Assembly (NCBI GenBank): GCA_016234495.1
Contig: JACRBI010000048.1
Span: 62,001-126,000, forward strand
Length of the DNA stretch: 64,000 nucleotides
Direction: 5' to 3'
DNA from: Chloroflexota bacterium
GTDB taxonomy: Bacteria; Chloroflexota; Anaerolineae; Anaerolineales; Villigracilaceae
Shown here: positions 10,094-18,783 of the stretch, piece after piece
Layout of the letters: every line of letters begins with the position of its first letter
How positions within the stretch are numbered: the first letter of the stretch is position 1
Program-made: the position numbers and the translations under genes
Notes under the pieces: model-generated
Database searches by the model: none
What the model saw: only the letters and a program-made list of their open reading frames with translations
Told to the model about the DNA's origin: nothing

Positions 10094-10492
10094 ATGAATA
10101 AAACCATCCTTTACATTGGCGCGGGAATTTTATTTTTGATCGGTTTGTGTCTTGTTGGCTATGGTGCATTGAGCGTCATCGGCTCCACTTCAACGCAGGG
10201 AAGTTCATCGTGGCTTGGTTTCGGACTTGGCTTCGCGGCTGTCGGTGTTTTATTTTTCATTGGCGGCGCGGGCATGGTGATAGCCGCCATGCGCGGAACA
10301 AAGACCGAAGTCATTCAGCAGGTGACCATGAAAGTGGACTTGCCCGGCGAGACGAAGATCGAGCAGGTGAAATGCAAATCCTGCGGGGGGACGCTTGCCG
10401 CAAAAGACATCACGCTTGCCAACGGCGCGCCGATGGTCAATTGCCCGTATTGCCACACCATCTATCAATTAACTGAAGAACCGAAGTGGTAG
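10094..10492 (+). CDS. Small membrane protein with C-terminal zinc ribbon
   Basis: 132 aa. Two transmembrane helices fill residues 5-30 and 42-66; after a basic stretch the cytoplasmic tail carries a treble-clef-like pair of CxxC motifs (CKSC and CPYC, about 20 residues apart). AGGAG at 10081-10085 precedes the ATG. I do not recognise a named family. It is the first gene of a same-strand run that leads into the Cys-Ala-tail protein and the radical SAM genes, separated from the next gene by a 100 bp spacer of GTGTC words, so membership in that locus is plausible but not proven. Confidence 0.75.
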   Translation: MNKTILYIGAGILFLIGLCLVGYGALSVIGSTSTQGSSSWLGFGLGFAAVGVLFFIGGAGMVIAAMRGTKTEVIQQVTMKVDLPGETKIEQVKCKSCGGTLAAKDITLANGAPMVNCPYCHTIYQLTEEPKW

Positions 10493-10592: not shown

Positions 10593-12275
10593 ATGTTGAA
10601 AAAAATCCTGATCCCGTTCCTCGTTTTCATCCTTGCATTTGCGGTTGTTGTCAATGCCTCGGCGCAGGACCTTCCTTATTATTTTCAAGTGAACAGGGAG
10701 GTGGTGCATGTCTACTGGAACTCAGACGGCACGCAAAGCCTGGATTACACGTGGACATTCACGAATCAGCCCAACTCGCATCCGATAGATTTCGTTGACG
10801 TGGGCATGCCCAACTACCGTTTTGATACAAGCACGATCACAGCCGAAGTGGACGGCGTACCCGTCTCGGTTTCTTCCAGCGACTATACGGGCAATGGCTC
10901 AGGCTTTGCGATCGTGATGGGCAGCAAAACCATCCCCGCAGGCGGATCAGGCACGGTGCATGTTTCCGTTGCCAGGATCACAAACGTGCTATATCCTGAC
11001 GACAACGACGAAGCCTATGCCAGCGCAACTTTCGCACCGACCTACTTTGGCTCGCAATATGTAACCGGCACTACCGATTTGACGGTCACATTCCACCTGC
11101 CGCCAAATATGGGCGAACAGGAGCCGCGCTGGCACGCTGCGCCTGCGGGCTTCTCCTCCGAGCCGCAAGCCGCATACGACGCCGAGAACCGCGTCACCTA
11201 CACCTGGTATTCGCCCTCCGCCAGCATGTCAGATTACTACGAGTTTGGCGCATCCTTCCCGCGCACCTACGTCCCAGCCGACCAAATTTACACACCCCCG
11301 GTCGAACCGTTAATCAGCGGTGACACGGTCTTTTCCCTGCTGTGCGGCGGATTCTTTTTATTCATGTTTGTCGGCATCCCGGCCATTTCAGCGGTTTCCA
11401 ATCAGCGCCGCAAAATGCAGTACCTGCCGCCCAAGGTCGCCATTGAAGGGCACGGCATCAAGCGCGGGCTGACCGCTGTCGAAGCCGCCATTCTTTTGGA
11501 ACAGCCACTCGATAAAGTGCTGACCATGATCCTGTTCGGCGTCATCAAAAAGGAAGCGGCATCCGTCAAGACCCGCGACCCGCTCGAACTCGACATCTCC
11601 GATCCGTTCCTGAACGATGAAAAATTACATGCCTACGAAAAAGATTTTCTGCGGGCTTTCAAAAACTCCGAGAAGAGGGAACGTCAAAAAGATTTGCAGG
11701 ACATGATGGTCGCGCTTGTCAAATCTGTTTCCGAAAAGTTGCGCGGTTTCAGCCGCAGGGAAACAGTGGATTATTACAAGTCCATCATGGAAAAAGCCTG
11801 GCAGCAAATCGAAGCCGCCGACACGCCCGAAGTAAAAAGCCAGAAGTTTGACGAAGCCCTCGAATGGACCATGCTCGACAAGGATTACGACGACCGCACA
11901 CGGCGAGTCGGCCCGGTGTACGTGCCGATGTGGTGGGGGCGGTATGACCCGACTTACAGTTCGCGTCCTGCCTCCGCCGGCAGCGGACTCCCATCCTCCA
12001 AATCGAGTCTGCCCTCGGGCACTGGCCGCTCCGCGCTGCCAGGCGCAGACATCGCCGCGCAGATGGTAACCGGCGTGCAGACCTTCTCGCAGAAAGTCGT
12101 GGGCAACGTCAACACCTTTACCGAGAAGATCACCGGCGCGACAAATCCCATGCCCAAGCCAACCTCCAGCGGAAAGAGCGGCGGTGGCCGCAGTGGCGGC
12201 GGGGGAGGACGTTCCTGCGCCTGTGCCTGCGCCTGTGCGGGCTGTGCCTGTGCCTGTGCCGGTGGCGGTAGGTAA
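10593..12275 (+). CDS. DUF2207-like membrane protein with a Cys-Ala repeat tail
   Basis: 560 aa. A signal peptide (about residues 1-25, ending ANAS-like before AQDLPYYF) precedes an extracellular beta-rich domain of about 220 residues, a transmembrane helix at about 247-270 and a cytoplasmic region of about 290 residues. The overall architecture resembles DUF2207 membrane proteins. The C-terminus is striking: a Gly-rich linker (GGGRSGGGGGR) leads into residues 541-560, in which seven cysteines alternate with alanine in two blocks (CACACACA, G, CACACA) before GGGR. RBS AAGGAG stands before the ATG. The function is unknown; because of the neighbouring PqqD-radical SAM genes I infer that the tail may be modified after translation, or bind metal. 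Confidence 0.75.
   Translation: MLKKILIPFLVFILAFAVVVNASAQDLPYYFQVNREVVHVYWNSDGTQSLDYTWTFTNQPNSHPIDFVDVGMPNYRFDTSTITAEVDGVPVSVSSSDYTGNGSGFAIVMGSKTIPAGGSGTVHVSVARITNVLYPDDNDEAYASATFAPTYFGSQYVTGTTDLTVTFHLPPNMGEQEPRWHAAPAGFSSEPQAAYDAENRVTYTWYSPSASMSDYYEFGASFPRTYVPADQIYTPPVEPLISGDTVFSLLCGGFFLFMFVGIPAISAVSNQRRKMQYLPPKVAIEGHGIKRGLTAVEAAILLEQPLDKVLTMILFGVIKKEAASVKTRDPLELDISDPFLNDEKLHAYEKDFLRAFKNSEKRERQKDLQDMMVALVKSVSEKLRGFSRRETVDYYKSIMEKAWQQIEAADTPEVKSQKFDEALEWTMLDKDYDDRTRRVGPVYVPMWWGRYDPTYSSRPASAGSGLPSSKSSLPSGTGRSALPGADIAAQMVTGVQTFSQKVVGNVNTFTEKITGATNPMPKPTSSGKSGGGRSGGGGGRSCACACACAGCACACAGGGR
12213..12272 (+). other. Cys-Ala repeat tail coding segment
   Basis: Codons for SCACACACAGCACACAGGGR, the last 20 residues of the protein. 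Cysteine and alanine codons alternate with both TGC/TGT and GCC/GCG in use, so this is not a simple dinucleotide slippage product. Seven Cys residues form blocks of four and three separated by a Gly. Confidence 0.9.
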
Positions 12276-12278
12276 TTC

Positions 12279-12310
12279 AATTTTCGATTTACGATTTTGG
12301 ATTTGCGATT
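12279..12310. repeat. CGATTTACGATT word repeat (intergenic)
   Basis: A run of CGATTTACGATT, TTTGGATTTGCGATT words between the Cys-Ala protein and the radical SAM gene. The same 12-base word CGATTTACGATT occurs at 13649-13690 inside the end of the radical SAM gene, and a relative at 61071-61101. Confidence 0.75.
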
Positions 12311-12328
12311 AATAATTAGAGGTGAATA

Positions 12329-13690
12329 ATGACTTTACTTGGTTCCATCAAAAATATTTTTCAAACATCGTCCGTGGTCAACGGTCCATCGTCTGGTCTT
12401 TACCACTACGTCCGCGAAACTGCGGAAGAAAAATCGCGCATCCACCTGCGCCTCGACCCAGACGGCACCGGCACGCTGATCGTCAACGCCAGCAGTGTCA
12501 TGCATTTGAATCCAACAGCCGCATTTATGGCGTATCTGATTCTTGAAGAGAAACAGGAAAAGGAAATTATCTCGGCCATCACCAAACAATATCGCGTCAG
12601 CTTGGCTCAGGCAAACGATGACCTTTCTGCCTTCCGCTTTCAGCTTTCCGAGTTACTCCGCCCTGACGGCGCCTGCGCCATTCACGATCTTGACCTGGAA
12701 ATGAACATGCCGTTCAGTGCGCGTCCGTCCGCTCCGTACCGCATGGATTTGGCTGTCACGTATCGCTGCAATAATGATTGCTCGCATTGCTACAATGCCC
12801 GCGAACGGAACTTCCCCGAACTGACAACTGAGCAATGGTTCAAGATCATTGACCAGCTTTGGGAGCTCGGCGTTCCGCACATCATCTTCACTGGCGGCGA
12901 GGCAACCCTGCGCAACGATCTGCCGGCGCTGATTCAACATGCAGAAAACAACGGCCAGATCACAGGGCTGAACACGAACGCGCGGCGCTTGTCCGATGAA
13001 AAATATGTACAGACTCTCGTCGCTGCGGGGTTGGATCATGTGCAAGTCACGGTCGAATCATGCGATGAACAAATCCACGATGAAATGATGCGAGCCAAAG
13101 GCGCGTTCAAGCAAACCATTCAGGGGTTGAAGAATGCGCTAGACAGCAAACTTTATGTGATGACCAACACCACCATGCTGCGCACCAACGTCCACAAGAT
13201 TCCGGAGACATTGGATTTTCTGGCTGAGATCGGCGTGCCGACCGTTGGATTGAACGCGCTCATCTATTCGGGTCATGGCGTGACCGTTGGCACGGGACTG
13301 CACGAGAGTGAGTTGCAGCCCATCCTTGACATTGCCACGCAAAAGACCGCCGCGCGCGGACAGAAACTCATCTGGTACACACCGACTCAATATTGTCAGT
13401 TTGACCCGACCGCAAATAATTTGGGAGTCAAAGGCTGCACAGCCGCGTTATACAGCATGTGCATCGAGTCGAACGGAAATGTGCTGCCATGCCAATCGTA
13501 TTACCAGCCTGTCGGCAACATCCTCACCGACGAATGGGATTTAATTTGGAATCACAGACTCTCGAAGCAGTTGCGCGAACGTCAGAACCTGCCCTTCAAA
13601 TGTGACACCTGCGCGCTCGTTGCCGAATGCGGCGGAGGATGCCCGTTGCAATTTCCGATTACCGATTTACGATTGCCGATGGTTAATTGA
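12329..13690 (+). CDS. PqqD-radical SAM-SPASM peptide-modifying enzyme
   Basis: 453 aa. Residues about 35-110 form a PqqD-like peptide-recognition domain (RRE). The radical SAM domain follows with C147-x3-C151-x2-C154 (CNNDCSHC), the GGEATL motif and the usual barrel order. A SPASM-type C-terminal region carries further cluster cysteines (GCTAALYSMC, VLPC, CDTC, ECGGGC). This domain set is known from enzymes that crosslink or epimerise ribosomally made peptides, such as PqqE and sactisynthases. GAGGTG precedes the ATG. The substrate is inferred to be the Cys-Ala tail of the upstream protein. The last 14 residues are encoded by a CGATT word repeat, and residues about 14-25 by a GTCAACGGTC repeat. 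Confidence 0.9.
   Translation: MTLLGSIKNIFQTSSVVNGPSSGLYHYVRETAEEKSRIHLRLDPDGTGTLIVNASSVMHLNPTAAFMAYLILEEKQEKEIISAITKQYRVSLAQANDDLSAFRFQLSELLRPDGACAIHDLDLEMNMPFSARPSAPYRMDLAVTYRCNNDCSHCYNARERNFPELTTEQWFKIIDQLWELGVPHIIFTGGEATLRNDLPALIQHAENNGQITGLNTNARRLSDEKYVQTLVAAGLDHVQVTVESCDEQIHDEMMRAKGAFKQTIQGLKNALDSKLYVMTNTTMLRTNVHKIPETLDFLAEIGVPTVGLNALIYSGHGVTVGTGLHESELQPILDIATQKTAARGQKLIWYTPTQYCQFDPTANNLGVKGCTAALYSMCIESNGNVLPCQSYYQPVGNILTDEWDLIWNHRLSKQLRERQNLPFKCDTCALVAECGGGCPLQFPITDLRLPMVN
12366..12402 (+). repeat. In-frame word repeat at the start of the radical SAM gene
   Basis: CATCGTCCGTGG-GTCAACGGTCC-ATCGTCTGG encodes SSVVNGPSSG. The word GTCAACGGTC is identical to those in recJ (3200-3254) and sbcC (50498-50550). 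The paralogue at 15187 has an unrelated sequence at this point (QPLPAGTHHM). Confidence 0.6.
13649..13690 (+). repeat. Word repeat forming the 3' end of the radical SAM gene
   Basis: ATTTCCGATTACCGATTTACGATTGCCG-type words encode the last residues FPITDLRLPMVN and the stop. It appears that a copy of the repeat replaced or extended the original C-terminus just after the last SPASM cysteine. Confidence 0.65.
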
Positions 13691-13725
13691 CCTTCAACTT
13701 TCTAACTTTTGAACCCGGAGAACTC

Positions 13726-14067
13726 ATGAACGAACACGCCTGGATCAAAGAATTTCCCGCCGCAATCACGGTTTGTGACGAAGAAGGCATCATCCTCGAA
13801 ATGAACGACAAAGCCGCCAAGACTTTCGAAAAAGACGGCGGGTATAAGCTCGTCGGCTCGAACATGCTCGATTGTCATCCCGACCCTGCCCGTGAAAAGA
13901 CTGAGAGGCTGCTCGCCGCGCGCGTGAAGAATGTGTACACCATCGAAAAGAACGGCATCAAAAAACTTATCTATCAATCCCCGTGGTATAAAGATGGAGT
14001 GTATTCAGGCTTCGTAGAAATCTCACTCGAAACTCCGTTTGAGATGCCGCACTTCATCCGCTCGTAA
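13726..14067 (+). CDS. Stand-alone PAS domain protein
   Basis: 113 aa single PAS fold: 'FPAAITVCDEEGIILEMNDKAAKTFEKDGG' is the typical N-terminal half with the Asn/Asp turn, and the strands ending 'YSGFVEISLETPF' close the fold. No output domain is attached. The ATG at 13726 follows GGAG at 13717-13720; a TTG upstream at 13687 overlaps the previous gene and is rejected. Such short PAS proteins bind small ligands or redox cofactors; here it lies between the two radical SAM paralogues, so it could be a sensor or an accessory fold for that locus, which is inference from position only. Confidence 0.8.
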   Translation: MNEHAWIKEFPAAITVCDEEGIILEMNDKAAKTFEKDGGYKLVGSNMLDCHPDPAREKTERLLAARVKNVYTIEKNGIKKLIYQSPWYKDGVYSGFVEISLETPFEMPHFIRS

Positions 14068-14084
14068 GCACACTGTTTTATGAA

Positions 14085-14162
14085 TGTGGTCTCGATACAC
14101 TCTTCGCTCCGCTCGGAACTACCCGACCACCACTGATCACTACTTACTGATTACTAATAACT
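14085..14162. repeat. Word repeats between PAS and membrane-protein genes
   Basis: GGTCTCGATACACTC with inverse GACCACC, then CACTACTTACTGATTACTAATAACTG. Read on the other strand, the latter shares TTAGTAATCAG exactly with the in-frame repeat inside sbcC at 51269-51311. Confidence 0.6.
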
Positions 14163-14168
14163 GCTCTT

Positions 14169-15176
14169 ATGGAAATCTGCTACCTGATCGCCTTCCCCGA
14201 TGCCGACGACGGCAAAGCCCCGCTCCCTGAACCATTCAAGGGATTGAAGGATGCGCCTTATTTCCGCCCCATTGACATTGACCTCGTCACCCTCGGCGAA
14301 GAAACTGTCCTCATTGAAGGCCATGCGGTGCTGGTCAATCGTCAGCGTTATGATGGACGCGTGCAAATGGTGGAATGCCGCTTTGACCTCAAAGACCCGT
14401 TCGCGGCATCCGTCTTGCAGGAGCGCGCAAAAATTCAAAACGCGCTGGAAAGTAAATTCATTCCAACCGCATACCGTCAAAACGGACTGTACGAAGAATT
14501 CTCCATCCTGCTTGTGCCGGGCGCCAGCCCGTCACCCGATAAATGGATCGAAAAAAATGCCCGCGCCCTTGCAAATTTCATCCGATCCCAGCGCGAAGTG
14601 TTCGATATCGAAGAGCTGAATGAAATCCTTGCATCGCGCACGCGCTACTCTGCCAGTGAACTCACGCTTGTAGATTGGGAAGGCGCTGTCATCATCGCCC
14701 CCAATGAAGATTACCAGTCTGACGTTGCCCTCCTCAAAATCGGCAACTACCAGTTGCTGCGTTACCGCATGCTGGATCAATCCATTGACGTCATGCTCGA
14801 CAAGATCAGCGAGACCTTCTTCGAGAATAAACGCCGCCCGCGCCCCACGCGCGGAGTCATCCGCCAGATCGCCGAACACAAACTTGAGGTCATGCTCGAC
14901 TTCGAGCGCGCCGAACAAAACCTGCTGCTCATCGGCGATTGGTACACAGCCAAACTTTATGAAGCCATCCAAAGCGAGTTCTACCTCAAGGACTGGAAGG
15001 AAAACCTCAAAGGCAAACTCGACAACCTCGAAAGCATCGTTGAAACCATCAAGGATAATTTCAGCATGTCCTTTGAAACATTGATGGACCGCCTGCAATT
15101 GATCGGCTGGGTCGTCCTGCTCATCGGCTACATCTACTTGTATTTTCTAGACGCAGGCTGGATCAAGTTCCCATAA
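14169..15176 (+). CDS. Conserved hypothetical protein with C-terminal membrane anchor
   Basis: 335 aa, not recognised. The N-terminal 270 residues are soluble and mixed alpha/beta. A long amphipathic helical stretch (residues about 250-310, with many Asp, Glu, Lys) ends in a single transmembrane helix (LIGWVVLLIGYIYLYFLDAG) close to the C-terminus. The order 'alpha/beta domain, long helices, terminal TM' is reminiscent of RMD1/DUF155 or CorA-like proteins, but no signature of either is clear. It ends 10 bp before the pseudo-radical-SAM gene, with AAGGAG in that gap, so the two are almost certainly co-transcribed. Confidence 0.7.
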   Translation: MEICYLIAFPDADDGKAPLPEPFKGLKDAPYFRPIDIDLVTLGEETVLIEGHAVLVNRQRYDGRVQMVECRFDLKDPFAASVLQERAKIQNALESKFIPTAYRQNGLYEEFSILLVPGASPSPDKWIEKNARALANFIRSQREVFDIEELNEILASRTRYSASELTLVDWEGAVIIAPNEDYQSDVALLKIGNYQLLRYRMLDQSIDVMLDKISETFFENKRRPRPTRGVIRQIAEHKLEVMLDFERAEQNLLLIGDWYTAKLYEAIQSEFYLKDWKENLKGKLDNLESIVETIKDNFSMSFETLMDRLQLIGWVVLLIGYIYLYFLDAGWIKFP

Positions 15177-15186
15177 AGGAGACAAC

Positions 15187-16323
15187 ATGAATATCGTTGA
15201 AAAGATCGCGAATCGTTTTTCAAAAGTCCAACCGCTGCCGGCCGGCACACATCACATGCAGGCCGCCGAAGATGAAAAGCCATATCGCCTGCACTTGCGT
15301 TTAAACAAAGACGGCTCTGGCTTGCTCATTTTAAACGCCGCCACAGTTTTGCAGCTTAACCCCACCGCCGCCGAATACGCCTTCCACTTCATCAAAGGCA
15401 CAGCCCCCGAAGAAGCCGCAAGTCAAATTTCAAAACGCTATCGTGTGGATAAGAAAACTGCGCTGGCGGATTTTTCCAACTTCGCAGATCAGATCCACAC
15501 CCTGATATCCACGCCTGATTTGGACCCCGCTTCTTTTCTGGACTTTGAGCGGGCACTGCCCCATTCGACAGAATCAACGCTGCGACTGGATTGCGCCGTC
15601 ACCTATCGCCTGCCTGAATCCACACACGCGGAATATGCGCCAGTCAAGCGGGTCGAGCGCGAACTCAGCACCGCCGAATGGCAGACCGTTTTAGACAAAG
15701 CCTGGCAAGCCGGCATCCCGCACATCATCTTCACCGGTGGCGAAGCCACCTTGCGTGAAGACCTGCCCCAACTCATTGCCCATGCCGAAAAGAACGGACA
15801 GGTGTGCGGCCTGCTCACCGACGGCTTGAAACTGGTTGACAAGGAATATCTTGAATTGCTCCTGCAAACCGGGCTTGACCATGTCATGCTCATCCTCCAA
15901 CCAGACGAACCGCGTTCATGGAAAGCCATCGAAACCATCGTCCCGCAGGATCTTTTCCTGACCGTACATTTCACGCTCAACAAAGATAACGTGGGCGAAG
16001 CAAAAAATATCCTGCAACGACTCGCAAACCTCGCAGTTGAAAATATCTCCCTCAGCGCCGCAGACAGCAGCCTGCTGGACGAAATGCTCGCATTGCAAAG
16101 CGCTGCCAATTCTCTGCGGCTCACCATCCGCTGGGATTTGCCCGTGCCGTATTCCGCCTCAAACCCTGTCAGCATCGAAACAGCAGATGATGAAATTCCC
16201 GCCGGCGCAGGCAAGACCTGGATGTACGTCGAACCCGATGGAGATGTGCTCCCCGCGCAGGGCGAAGCGGATAAAGTCCTCGGCAACTTTTTGAAAGATG
16301 ATTGGGATAGGATTTTCAAATAG
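15187..16323 (+). CDS. Degenerate radical SAM paralogue (PqqD domain kept, cluster cysteines lost)
   Basis: 378 aa, clearly homologous to the radical SAM protein at 12329: same PqqD-like N-terminus (LHLRLNKDGSGLLILNAATV), same HIIFTGGEATLREDLP block and the same TGLDHVML strand. Where the active enzyme has CNNDCSHCY, this one reads LPESTHAEY, so all three [4Fe-4S]/SAM cysteines are gone. The SPASM cysteines are lost as well (AGAGKTWMYVEPDGDVLPAQ), and the protein ends about 35 residues earlier. The frame is intact, which argues against a pseudogene; a role as peptide-binding partner of the active enzyme is inferred. Preceded by AAGGAG; followed by a terminator that closes the locus. Confidence 0.85.
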   Translation: MNIVEKIANRFSKVQPLPAGTHHMQAAEDEKPYRLHLRLNKDGSGLLILNAATVLQLNPTAAEYAFHFIKGTAPEEAASQISKRYRVDKKTALADFSNFADQIHTLISTPDLDPASFLDFERALPHSTESTLRLDCAVTYRLPESTHAEYAPVKRVERELSTAEWQTVLDKAWQAGIPHIIFTGGEATLREDLPQLIAHAEKNGQVCGLLTDGLKLVDKEYLELLLQTGLDHVMLILQPDEPRSWKAIETIVPQDLFLTVHFTLNKDNVGEAKNILQRLANLAVENISLSAADSSLLDEMLALQSAANSLRLTIRWDLPVPYSASNPVSIETADDEIPAGAGKTWMYVEPDGDVLPAQGEADKVLGNFLKDDWDRIFK

Positions 16324-16336
16324 GTAAACTCCAATG

Positions 16337-16366
16337 AACGTCATGCTGCGAGGCATGACGTTTTTG
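16337..16366 (+). terminator. Intrinsic terminator closing the radical SAM locus
   Basis: Perfect 10 bp stem AACGTCATGC / GCATGACGTT with a 6 nt loop and a T-run, 13 bp after the stop. Confidence 0.92.
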
Positions 16367-16422: not shown

Positions 16423-17472
16423 ATGCTGCGCATTAAACAACTTCTCGCAATTTCTGCAATTCTTCTGTCATCGTTGGCCTGTGCCACACTTTTGGGCGAA
16501 CCAGCGGATGACGTTTATATTTCCGAGCCGTCTGAAATTACAGAAATCCCTGTTACTGAAATTCCCACAGAAATGCCCGTCGAACTCATTTCCTGTCCGC
16601 TGCTTACAGACCAGATCGTTGAATTAAATTCAACCGTGCTGGTGGAAGGCGAAGCCGAAACGATGGACTTTGGCTCCCGTGACGAGGACAACACGACATA
16701 TATTGTCACGTATCTTGTTTCAGGCGATGAGATCAACACGCCCAGCTTTGAAAGTGTCCCCGCTGATTTACAGGATGAGCAGGATGATTCAGCCGCGCAT
16801 CAGCAGCTTTGGGATTATTTTGCGGCGCTCATCCCGTTTGAGAACCGCACGAGCCTTGCCAACTTTTCCGTCATGACCGACGGGCAGGATAATGTTCTCG
16901 CAGCTGTCGCTCAGGTTTACGCCGACCCAACTCTCTGGGGTCTGGAAGTGGATATTGCCGACACCGACGATTACTACTATCTCAGCTATACCCTCATCCA
17001 CGAATTTGCCCACCTGTTGACCCTCGGCGCGGATCAGGTCCCACCAAGCGAAGCCATTTTCAACAACCCTGATGATAATGATATTTACCTCGATGAAGTG
17101 TCCGCTTGCCCCAATTTCTTCCCCGGTGAAGGCTGTGCCAACAGCGATTCATACATCAACCAATACTACGAGCAATTTTGGTTTGACATTTACGAGGAGT
17201 GGAACGTCATCAACCTCGAAGAAGACGACGATGCCTATTATCAAAAACTCGACGACTTCTATTACAAATACCAGGATCAGTTTCTAACTGATTACGCAGC
17301 TACTCACCCCGCCGAGGATATTGCTGAATCCTTTTCATTTTTTGTCTTCAGTGAAATGCCCACAGGTGACACCGTTGCTGAGCAGAAGATTCTCTTCTTT
17401 TATAATTTCCCCGAACTTGTCGAACTGCGTGCAAAAATCATCAACAATCTCTGCGCAGCTTTTCCGCAATAA
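16423..17472 (+). CDS. Lipoprotein with an HExxH metallopeptidase-like motif
   Basis: 349 aa. A lipoprotein signal peptide ends at the lipobox LSSLAC (Cys at about 20). After a Thr/Glu/Pro-rich linker comes an acidic globular domain in which residues 193-197 read HEFAH inside 'YTLIHEFAHLLTLGAD', the zinc-binding pattern of metallopeptidases; a Glu or His third ligand could be in 'DIAESFSFFVFSE'. No named peptidase family is obvious. Tyr- and Asp-rich sequence with six cysteines (for example ACPNFFPGEGCANS) suggests a disulfide-stabilised exported domain. AAGGA lies before the ATG. The phosphatase gene starts 4 bp later. Confidence 0.75.
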   Translation: MLRIKQLLAISAILLSSLACATLLGEPADDVYISEPSEITEIPVTEIPTEMPVELISCPLLTDQIVELNSTVLVEGEAETMDFGSRDEDNTTYIVTYLVSGDEINTPSFESVPADLQDEQDDSAAHQQLWDYFAALIPFENRTSLANFSVMTDGQDNVLAAVAQVYADPTLWGLEVDIADTDDYYYLSYTLIHEFAHLLTLGADQVPPSEAIFNNPDDNDIYLDEVSACPNFFPGEGCANSDSYINQYYEQFWFDIYEEWNVINLEEDDDAYYQKLDDFYYKYQDQFLTDYAATHPAEDIAESFSFFVFSEMPTGDTVAEQKILFFYNFPELVELRAKIINNLCAAFPQ

Positions 17473-17476
17473 AATC

Positions 17477-18040
17477 ATGACCAAAATTCCGATCATTGAA
17501 TCCTATTGGGTCGAAGAGAACCGTTTTCTGGCTGGCGAATACCCCGGCGGCTTTGACGCTGAATCCATGTGCCGCCGCATTGACTCGTTCCTTGAAGCGG
17601 GAGTCGATACCTTTATTGACCTCACCCAGCCGCACGAACTTGTTTCCTATGAAGCGATATTAAAGGAGCAGGCGCAAATCTATGACGTCAACGCGTCGTA
17701 TCAACGCCTGGCCATTCGCGATCACAGCGTCCCTTCAGCGCAGACCATGACCGCAATTCTCGACGCCATAGACGAAGCCATCAACAATCAACGCTGCGTT
17801 TATGTCCATTGCTGGGGCGGGGTGGGGCGCACGGGCATGGTTGTCGGCTGCCATCTTGTGCGGCATGGCTTCACAAATGAACAGGCTGCTGTGCGGGTGA
17901 ATGAGTTGTTCAAGACCAGACCGCGGAATTTATATTTTTCGCACTCGCCCGAAACTCGAGAACAGATCGAGTTTATTCTTAACTGGTGGGAAGATCCTGC
18001 CGCGCTGCACAAGAACAACCTGAAATTTTGTGAAGGATGA
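17477..18040 (+). CDS. Dual-specificity/tyrosine protein phosphatase
   Basis: 187 aa with the PTP active-site loop HCWGGVGRTG (Cys nucleophile, Arg for phosphate) and an upstream loop around 'RLAIRDHSVPS' that supplies the general-acid Asp. The ATG at 17477 lies 4 bp after the previous stop; the open frame continues upstream inside the lipoprotein gene but without homology to a phosphatase. It resembles bacterial cyclin-dependent-kinase-inhibitor-3/DSP-like phosphatases. The next gene overlaps its stop as ATGA, so translation is coupled. Its substrates are unknown; a Ser/Thr kinase is encoded far away at 56790. Confidence 0.9.
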   Translation: MTKIPIIESYWVEENRFLAGEYPGGFDAESMCRRIDSFLEAGVDTFIDLTQPHELVSYEAILKEQAQIYDVNASYQRLAIRDHSVPSAQTMTAILDAIDEAINNQRCVYVHCWGGVGRTGMVVGCHLVRHGFTNEQAAVRVNELFKTRPRNLYFSHSPETREQIEFILNWWEDPAALHKNNLKFCEG

Positions 18041-18783
18041 ACTGGCATTCGCGTTATCTTCAGCAAGCCGCATGGACTCATGACCTGAGAACCTATGTCT
18101 TTCAACAGGCGGGATTGGCAAACGCGCGCCGCGTGCTGGAAGTGGGCTGCGGAACCGGCGCGATTTTGCGCGAACTTGATATTCCTTCCGCGGTCACCTG
18201 CACTGGCGCGCGGCGCAAGTGTCATGGCCTTGACCTTGAGCCTGCATCGCTCATCGAATGCAGGCTCCACGCCCCGGCAGTTTCGCTGACTTGCGGCGAT
18301 GCGCATCGCCTGCCGTTCCCGCATAAATCTTTTGATATTGCATATTGTCATTTTCTTCTGTTGTGGGTGAGTGATCCTTTGCAGGTTGTGCGCGAAATGG
18401 CCCGCGTCAGTCATACTGTGCTGGCACTGGCCGAGCCGGATTACAGTCAGCGGGTGGATGAGCCGTCCGCGCTTGCGCCCCTCGGCAAGTGGCAAATGGA
18501 TGCCCTACGCCGTCAGGGGGCGAACCCATCTTTTGGGGCGCGCCTCGCTGAGATATTTTTTCAGGCGGGAGTCAAAATCATCGAAACGGGACCCATTCAA
18601 GGCGAAGCAGTGATGCGCTCTGCCGAAGATTGGGAAAATGAATGGGCGGTGATACAGGCTGATTTGGGCGGGAGTGTTCCGGACGGGGAAGTCCAAAAAA
18701 TGAAATTCATGGATGAAGCGGCGCGGCGCGATGGAAAACGCACCTTGCATGTTCCCACCTTCTTTGCCTGGGGTAAGACTTAA
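18037..18783 (+). CDS. Class I SAM-dependent methyltransferase
   Basis: 248 aa. Motif I is LEVGCGTGAILRE, motif II 'LTCGDAHRLPFPHKSFDIAYC' is typical of Methyltransf_11, and 'LLLWVSDPLQVVREMARV' follows. Acceptor unknown. ATGA overlap with the phosphatase gene indicates an operon. An insert between motif I and motif II ('TCTGARRKCHGLDLEPASL') is slightly longer than usual. Confidence 0.88.
   Translation: MNWHSRYLQQAAWTHDLRTYVFQQAGLANARRVLEVGCGTGAILRELDIPSAVTCTGARRKCHGLDLEPASLIECRLHAPAVSLTCGDAHRLPFPHKSFDIAYCHFLLLWVSDPLQVVREMARVSHTVLALAEPDYSQRVDEPSALAPLGKWQMDALRRQGANPSFGARLAEIFFQAGVKIIETGPIQGEAVMRSAEDWENEWAVIQADLGGSVPDGEVQKMKFMDEAARRDGKRTLHVPTFFAWGKT

Follow-up and report, generated by a model that had tools for sequence, protein, structure and literature searches.

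A gene pair encoding a membrane protein with a C-terminal tail of alternating Cys and Ala residues and a radical S-adenosylmethionine (SAM) enzyme was analysed in a 64,000-nucleotide stretch of DNA (the window) from the Chloroflexota bacterium GCA_016234495.1 (order Anaerolineales; contig JACRBI010000048.1, positions 62,001-126,000). Judged from sequence comparison, the genes for tail and enzyme form a near-obligate pair, both in bacteria and in Asgard archaea, and the tail is very probably the substrate of the enzyme. Their pairing suggests a widespread and apparently undescribed modification of a membrane-protein tail: no description of such a system was found in the open-licence literature, and prior mention elsewhere is possible. 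A first-pass annotation of the window had proposed that the tail is modified by the adjacent enzyme. The features it described are all present where it placed them and all lie on the + strand, including the Cys-Ala end of the membrane protein (seven Cys, at residues 542, 544, 546, 548, 551, 553 and 555, within the last 19 residues). The gene pairing is borne out and extends far beyond the window, and the inference as a whole is partly supported.

Tail conservation was assessed in an order set of up to 19 kb at each of 100 places in Anaerolineales genomes (96 at tail or radical SAM genes, and four at genes for a 335-amino-acid protein in tail-less genomes), with the window proteins as queries. 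Tail statistics refer to 92 homologues of at least 450 amino acids; 16 shorter frames (tail-less paralogues, broken frames and two with tails) were set aside. All 92 have CACA within their last 40 residues: 84 end exactly in CACACAGCACACAGGGR and three in CACACAGCACACACAGGGR, four differ slightly and one runs off its contig. Of 644 Cys in the last 60 residues of these proteins, 643 precede Ala and one precedes Val. Such strictness for Ala, where other small residues might have served, is the strongest argument from sequence that Ala would be a reactant and not a spacer. When the order set is combined with 80 places from the species scan described below (the two may share genomes), 155 identical 17-residue tails ending in CACACAGCACACAGGGR are encoded by 145 different DNA sequences, with synonymous codons used freely (including all six Arg codons). 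One tail from so many DNA sequences excludes chance and points to conservation of the protein; as read from its codons, the tail is under protein-level selection. A (CA)4 codon pattern occurs in 144 of 251 order genomes, with one match (G218) seen in a backwards-read control. A segment resembling FTxxVTxxTNPxP precedes the tail in 140 of 173 tail frames (a set picked by tail pattern, and so biased) and is a candidate site of recognition. Of the order set's 94 tail-bearing frames, 91 measure 527-766 amino acids; the other three (92, 180 and 263 amino acids) are at the edge of a contig or in a frame that is broken. Two overlapping tail-bearing or tail-protein frames are found at L083, and several pieces with broken frames at L156.

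Among 251 genomes sampled from the order, 177 contain the tail protein and 178 have a radical SAM match at 1e-30. Both are present in 174 genomes and neither in 70, with three genomes carrying the tail alone (G052, G061 and G149) and four the enzyme alone (G037, G043, G095 and G220; Fisher p 4e-53). As the genomes are related, this p-value overstates their independence, and matches at 1e-30 can admit a degenerate relative of the enzyme (as in G095), here called the pseudo-radical-SAM protein. The tail gene is missing from nine of 44 genomes in the window's own family, all of which also lack the methyltransferase described below; a radical SAM match at 1e-30 is missing from eight of the nine, and the other one (G095) has a single match, at 1e-55. 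This match is read as the pseudo-enzyme because a profile search finds no radical SAM enzyme there at 1e-80; G095 thus has no tail gene, no true enzyme by profile and no methyltransferase match. In a sample of 201 genomes from the phylum, profiles of the tail protein (1e-8) and the enzyme (1e-80), with cut-offs chosen by us, match the same 13 genomes, and 188 have neither. Since 11 of the 13 are from the window's own order, this sample adds only two lineages (G508 and G394, both by profile match). Homologues of the tail protein are seldom without the enzyme (three of 177 order genomes, none of the 13 in the phylum sample), and no other partner of the enzyme is as constant; neither of the two outcomes that the first-pass annotation had named as refuting its proposal was observed. 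Within the order set, an intact radical SAM gene follows the tail gene on the same strand at 76 of 91 loci.

A search of genomes for the tail itself, which the first-pass annotation had recommended, gives a similar picture: the enzyme co-occurs with the tail in nearly all places followed. One genome from each of 84,980 species was scanned for codons spelling CACACAGCACA; the scan gave at least 119 stretches of 8 kb or less, hence a sample, in which members of the radical SAM family were called at E<1e-20. The tail is in frame within an open reading frame in 118 of the 119 places listed; at the other, L199, the frame is cut by the edge of the stretch and is followed by the enzyme. A member of the enzyme family lies in the same stretch in 99 of the 119 places listed (65 of 79, L199, and 33 of 39). 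It is downstream on the same strand in 58 of 65 stretches, upstream on the same strand in five and on the other strand in two, and the cluster-binding motif is found in at least 58 of these 65 enzymes, the motif pattern missing some true ones (L209). Fourteen places without the enzyme in their stretch were followed genome-wide: in 13 of the genomes a match reaches 1e-20, and in 12 of those 4.6e-74 or better, and at the fourteenth, Hungatella hathewayi, the enzyme gene ends where the tail gene begins. Going by record titles, the matches listed represent Chloroflexota, Pirellulales and other planctomycetes, Aminicenantes, Zixibacteria, Acidobacteriota, Armatimonadetes, Coatesbacteria, Edwardsbacteria, Hydrogenedentota, Sabulitectum/Fermentibacteraceae, Chrysiogenales, a deltaproteobacterial metagenome-assembled genome (MAG) and others, nearly all of them MAGs. 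Also among them are six Asgard MAGs (Hodarchaeota and Lokiarchaeota, two each; Heimdallarchaeota; Sigynarchaeota) and one clostridium, H. hathewayi.

The H. hathewayi tail protein (family Lachnospiraceae) has homologues in 11 of 120 genomes of that family. Ten of the 11 carry CACACACA(GGG or SSG)RAGC[ST]xK[DE]F[YF], and in all ten of these genomes the radical SAM gene directly adjoins the tail gene, nine of the enzymes being 50-53% identical to that of H. hathewayi. The single tail-less homologue (G333, E 1.6e-5) has no radical SAM gene within its 12-kb stretch. These proteins are shorter than those of Anaerolineales (319-480 amino acids) and consist of a transmembrane (TM) helix, an ectodomain, a second TM helix and the tail, with no large cytosolic domain. 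As read from the sequences, six of the ten have a CPxCG...CxYCG zinc ribbon fused between TM helix and tail (the one fusion scanned matches Pfam Zn_ribbon_3 at E 0.0052, below cut-off), which mirrors the separate upstream zinc-ribbon gene of Anaerolineales. The Lachnospiraceae version is the enzyme and the tail protein alone.

The first-pass description of the enzyme as a radical SAM protein with PqqD-like and SPASM regions is confirmed for all three domains by a Pfam scan (Radical_SAM E 2e-28, SPASM 7.4e-8, and PqqD 1.6e-7, the last above cut-off); PqqD also matches an Asgard enzyme (5.4e-6). The CX3CX2C motif (Cys 147, 151 and 154) is kept in 31 of 31 aligned family members, and CX3CX2CY in 89 of 91 order-set homologues longer than 400 amino acids, the two exceptions being second, degenerate copies. 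SPASM domains bind auxiliary clusters through the pattern CX9-15GX4C ... CX2CX5CX3C ... C, and the corresponding Cys of the window enzyme (C370-X12-G383-X4-C388 and C425-X2-C428-X5-C434-X3-C438) are kept in all 31 members. Among solved chains, SkfB (1.3e-29) and then PqqE (2.4e-28) are nearest to the enzyme profile, and the closest structures include CteB (5wgg) and SuiB (5v1q). The enzyme could not be assigned to a named system: none of the best 25 of 85 NCBIfam matches reaches its maturase cut-off (the top match scores 134 bits against 381 for PqqE), nor does any of the best 25 for two Lachnospiraceae enzymes and one Asgard enzyme, and the curated cut-offs for named systems such as SkfB, PqqE, StsB, ACGX, SCM, GeoRSP and mycofactocin are not reached. 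An anti-phage role was likewise rejected, the PADLOC matches of the enzyme and the pseudo-radical-SAM protein being viperins (best 6.7e-17), which we read as a shared radical SAM fold. The word CGATTTACGATT occurs with similar flanks at 12285-12296, after the tail gene, and at 13663-13674, within the last codons of the enzyme gene, so that the C-terminus of the window enzyme may be repeat-altered.

In an AlphaFold2 model (mean predicted local distance difference test [pLDDT] 83, predicted template modelling score [pTM] 0.47), the window tail protein has a signal or TM helix (residues 2-24), a beta-sandwich ectodomain (approximately 31-223), a TM helix (approximately 243-275), a helical domain placed in the cytosol (approximately 295-451, winged-helix-like by eye), helices at 484-517 and a disordered tail. 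Its only Cys outside the tail is Cys 251, within the TM helix, making eight in all. Basic residues (NQRRK) come after this helix, and under the positive-inside rule the C-terminal half and tail should therefore face the cytosol, within reach of the enzyme. No Pfam or NCBIfam family is matched at cut-off by the tail proteins scanned; DUF2207 was considered and rejected, as only one of 40 members matches DUF2207_C (E 0.079, below significance). The body of the protein drifts to about 30% identity among homologues. The best fold match of the ectodomain (residues approximately 27-226) is Ost1/ribophorin I (Z 17.3, root-mean-square deviation 2.8, 184 residues, 13% identity), over Ost1 residues 227-446; N-domains of M1 aminopeptidases score lower (Z about 12), and the ribophorin Pfam family is not matched by any of 40 members at E 0.1. 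Ost1 shares the order of signal sequence, ectodomain, TM helix and cytosolic helical domain with the tail protein, and its ectodomain is larger than the stretch matched here. To our knowledge, Ost1 has no Cys-Ala tail. The cytosolic part of Ost1 is reported to be a helical bundle, and OST1 to be present in eukaryotes and in TACK and Asgard archaea (PMC11417166). A bacterial protein of Ost1-like layout may bear on the origin of OST1. Tail proteins are also encoded at the Asgard loci L179, L180 and L215.

Three further genes recur with the pair. The first-pass annotation named one of them, as a second PqqD gene, and overlooked the zinc-ribbon and methyltransferase genes, so that its gene set was incomplete (Table 1). 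Of the 90 order-set tail genes that could be tested, 85 have the zinc-ribbon gene upstream in the same orientation, and this gene is also found beside tail genes in Sabulitectum, Acidobacteriota, Aminicenantes and Loki/Sigyn loci. The second PqqD gene is indeed conserved, lying 3' of the tail gene within 7 kb in 82 of 86 testable order-set cases, and is conserved as a pseudo-enzyme: CX3CX2CY is kept by none of 80 homologues longer than 330 amino acids, by which an active enzyme was rejected, and the window copy also lacks SPASM. Its model (mean pLDDT 83.5, pTM 0.80) first matches SkfB, PqqE, CteB and SuiB, and the epimerase EpeE is also among its Foldseek rows; by this model, the protein is a maturase body without cluster ligands.

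Homologues of the methyltransferase are present at 81 of 100 order loci, at 36 of 80 scan loci (shorter stretches) and at none of the four loci of tail-less genomes; by genome, the gene is in 159 of 177 tail-bearing and three of 74 tail-less members of the order (E 1e-25). The window protein, which lies outside the interval of the first-pass annotation, is 33% identical to a Hodarchaeota homologue. The gene directly follows the enzyme gene in the Asgard loci named above, and it comes after the enzyme gene in Zixibacteria, Acidobacteriota and Sabulitectum/Fermentibacteraceae. In a group with a (CA)3G(CA)4 tail it directly follows the tail gene; some of the 18 tail-bearing genomes without a methyltransferase belong to this group and have a distant version beside the tail gene (L150, L151 and L153). 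A search for recurrent neighbours at 27 distant scan loci (stretches of 8 kb or less) found class I methyltransferases in 11, mostly adjoining the core genes; this cluster links several subfamilies, and L171 showed only a different, more distant one. The families found in at least three of the 27 loci, which were also considered for dedicated peptidase and exporter genes, are the tail protein, the enzyme, the methyltransferase and the zinc ribbon, along with an acetyltransferase-like protein (by eye, three loci) and a probable antisense frame.

Table 1. Features of the Cys-Ala tail locus in the window.
Feature	Position	Strand	Evidence
Small membrane protein with C-terminal CxxC...CxxC zinc ribbon; conserved, directly 5' of tail gene	10094..10492	+	
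Cys-Ala tail protein, 560 amino acids	10593..12275	+	Open reading frame, AlphaFold2 model, homologues in 177/251 order genomes
Tail CACACACAGCACACAGGGR (residues 542-560), proposed substrate	12216..12272	+	
RRE(PqqD)-radical SAM-SPASM enzyme, proposed tail maturase	12329..13690	+	
Small PAS-like protein, 113 amino acids from ATG at 13726; accessory	13726..14067	+	
335-amino-acid protein with C-terminal TM segment; accessory, probably outside the system	14169..15176	+	
PqqD/RRE-bearing pseudo-radical-SAM protein, proposed to handle substrate without catalysis	15187..16323	+	
Possible intrinsic terminator, 12-pair stem then T-rich stretch	16336..16363	+	
Class I SAM-dependent methyltransferase, conserved gene-set member	18037..18783	+	Pfam Methyltransf_11 E 5.5e-17

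On this evidence from sequence, the radical SAM enzyme is probably a dedicated maturase of the Cys-Ala tail that installs several C-S crosslinks. The combination of an RRE, a SPASM domain and a near-invariant Cys-Ala substrate suggests a reaction in which a radical activates C-H bonds of Ala and Cys sulfur then attacks, and the chances that the modification is thioether crosslinking are, by analogy with known maturases, about even. The PqqD-type RRE would bind the segment before the tail (FTxxVTxxTNPxP), assisted in Anaerolineales by the pseudo-radical-SAM protein. A 5'-deoxyadenosyl radical would abstract H atoms from Ala residues of the tail, and neighbouring Cys sulfurs would then close several S-C thioether crosslinks, with two H lost for each; the methyltransferase, where present, would add a methyl group. 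SkfB is reported to take Ala as an acceptor with only its C-alpha H lost, and CteB to link Cys32 to Thr34, two positions on (PMC8326336). The modified tail would form a rigid, sulfur-rich appendage on the inner membrane face, connected by the TM helix to a sensor-like extracellular domain and perhaps acting as a metal- or redox-responsive element. A metal or redox role, for which the zinc ribbon and the sulfur-rich tail are the grounds, is put forward tentatively.

Several observations weigh against this proposal. The Lachnospiraceae stretches hold no methyltransferase or pseudo-radical-SAM homologue and no separate zinc-ribbon gene, and PqqD/RRE is not matched in the two Lachnospiraceae enzymes scanned. 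A seventh SPASM Cys, found in most aligned members outside Anaerolineales, is absent from the window enzyme and has no counterpart in most aligned Anaerolineales members. Six of the 119 places listed in the scan (L246, L249, L262, L268, L275 and L284) have no radical SAM gene in their stretch, two (L169 and L269) have only a degenerate copy there (the genome of L169 holds a match at 1e-20), and one of the 13 genome-wide matches (G380/L230) reaches only 2.5e-34 and is doubtful. Of the 15 order-set loci at which no enzyme gene follows the tail gene, ten belong to family f9, in which the enzyme gene lies outside the tail operon (nearby on the opposite strand in eight, not in the stretch in two) and often adjoins a tail-less paralogue. 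A SPASM radical SAM enzyme could instead epimerise, oxidise or form C-C bonds, and the thioether-bearing ribosomally synthesised and post-translationally modified peptides known to us are short peptides, not 560-residue membrane proteins. The paralogues beside the enzyme (271-341 amino acids; L088, L108, L109, L119, L120, L121, L125 and L164) have only the TM and cytosolic domains and end in xR[AT]T[FY][YFR]G, with no Cys tail.

Some other modification of the tail by the enzyme (epimerisation of Ala or Cys, oxidation of Cys, a C-C linkage, or a lanthionine-type bond from sulfur to the C-beta of Ala) is less probable but deserves weight, as the closest solved structures include enzymes forming S-C bonds (SkfB and CteB) and C-C bonds (PqqE and SuiB), as described in PMC8326336 and PMC6231123, and EpeE appears among the matches of the pseudo-radical-SAM model. 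The tail, however, offers as side chains only Cys, the methyl group of Ala and one Arg; lacking aromatic, Lys and Glu side chains, it disfavours C-C chemistry on those residues. It is unlikely that the tail stays unmodified and serves as a metal or Fe-S site of metallothionein type, with the enzyme modifying something else or drawing on the tail to relay metal or electrons. The presence of six to eight Cys spaced as C-X-C and of a zinc-ribbon partner or fusion would suit such a site, but a site made of thiolates alone is expected to tolerate other residues after Cys, as metallothioneins do, whereas Ala takes that position 643 times in 644; the RRE and the strict pairing with the enzyme would also be left unexplained.

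Still less probable is that the enzyme, the pseudo-radical-SAM protein and the methyltransferase act on an unseen peptide or lipid, the tail protein being only a docking platform. The tail-less paralogue beside the f9 enzyme would fit this arrangement. Against it, Lachnospiraceae keep only the ectodomain, TM helix and tail (with the zinc ribbon in six of ten) together with the enzyme; the tail-less homologue in G333 is without an enzyme in its 12-kb stretch; and no unassigned family among the 27 distant loci is as frequent as the tail protein and the enzyme, the methyltransferase (11 loci) coming next. That a low-complexity tail lies beside an unrelated radical SAM gene by chance or hitch-hiking can be practically dismissed: the tails are conserved as protein across 145 DNA sequences, tail and enzyme genes are found paired in many phyla and not always in the same order, the co-occurrence counts speak against it and nothing was found in its favour.

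The proposed system is of a known kind, the maturation of ribosomal substrates by radical SAM enzymes, but its substrate is unusual and is conserved near-invariantly over an unusually wide range. The maturases of sactipeptides and ranthipeptides (SkfB and CteB), and also SuiB and PqqE, share with it the RRE, CX3CX2C and a SPASM/Twitch region. Those systems also share Cys in the substrate, and Ala is usable as a thioether acceptor by SkfB (PMC8326336). They differ in that the tail protein is a predicted integral membrane protein with a near-invariant (CA)nG(CA)n tail at its C-terminus, and not a short precursor peptide with a leader, has pseudo-radical-SAM and methyltransferase partners, and occurs in Asgard archaea as well. 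QhpD, according to the same source, is a radical SAM enzyme that forms thioether links in a subunit of quinohemoprotein amine dehydrogenase (PMC8326336). The likeness is that Cys thioethers are formed in a protein and not in a peptide natural product; the links made by QhpD join Cys to Asp or Glu within an enzyme subunit, in contrast to the C-terminal Cys-Ala tail of a membrane protein proposed here. In the ACGX system, a TIGR04340 radical SAM enzyme is paired with an ACGX-repeat peptide. A SPASM radical SAM enzyme and a short repeat containing Ala-Cys are common to both, but the window enzyme scores 65.9 bits against a TIGR04340 cut-off of 400, and the repeat and its carrier differ.

The nearest published idea is that the Cys-rich C-terminal tails of TIGR04222 membrane proteins are putative substrates of multinuclear non-haem iron-dependent oxidative enzymes (MNIOs; PMC12452194). 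There too, a metallo-maturase is proposed to act on the low-complexity, Cys-rich end of a membrane protein, but family, enzyme and predicted membrane side are different: the maturase here is a radical SAM enzyme and the tail is C-A alternating, near-invariant and predicted to be cytosolic, whereas that paper predicts TIGR04222 tails to be periplasmic and reports that they are more loosely associated with the enzyme (PMC12452194). The tail protein has no match to TIGR04222 at E 1. MNIO chemistry was rejected for the window system, as PF05114 was not found in the window's genome (98% complete); two of 14 control genomes matched.

Conservation of a tail of at least 17 residues from bacteria to Asgard archaea, while the body of the protein drifts, suggests that its function is basic to the cell and its chemical product fixed. 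It is conceivable, if somewhat short of likely, that the (CA)nG(CA)nGGGR tail becomes a multiply S-C(Ala) bridged appendage, methylated in many lineages, on the cytosolic face, which would amount to a new kind of metal/redox switch or protein-derived cofactor. If so, gut clostridia, Anaerolineales and Asgard archaea would have in common an appendage one TM helix away from a ribophorin I-like extracellular domain. Radical SAM peptide maturation has mostly been studied on small peptides, and is tied here to the C-terminus of a membrane protein. Hosts in which this is directly testable are Lachnospiraceae, including the isolate H. hathewayi WAL-18680 with its two-gene version, and named strains of Bellilinea, Levilinea, Ornatilinea and Leptolinea.

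The PAS-like and 335-residue proteins, which the first-pass annotation had counted as partners, are accessory only. The PAS gene is present at 13 of 100 order loci and nine of 80 scan loci (PAS-like Pfam match E 0.0017, below cut-off). The 335-residue protein is encoded in 37 of 251 genomes, 29 with a tail gene and eight without (Fisher p 0.33), and, given this spread independent of the tail gene, neither gene was retained as a core part. This protein has no Pfam match at E 1 and a weak JAB match in PADLOC (3.9e-4); we presume that it resembles DUF155/RMD1-type proteins with a C-terminal TM segment, for which Pfam gave no match. The terminator thought to close the gene set is present as a hairpin followed by T residues, but terminator-like sites are no commoner in the region than in shuffled sequence (eight observed, shuffle mean 9.5). 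Just 3' of it, window positions 16423-17472 encode a lipoprotein-like protein that carries HEFAH, a motif of metallopeptidase type (Pfam Peptidase_Mx 4e-5, below cut-off), and positions 17480-18040, directly 5' of the conserved methyltransferase gene, encode a dual-specificity-type phosphatase with Pfam PTP domains.

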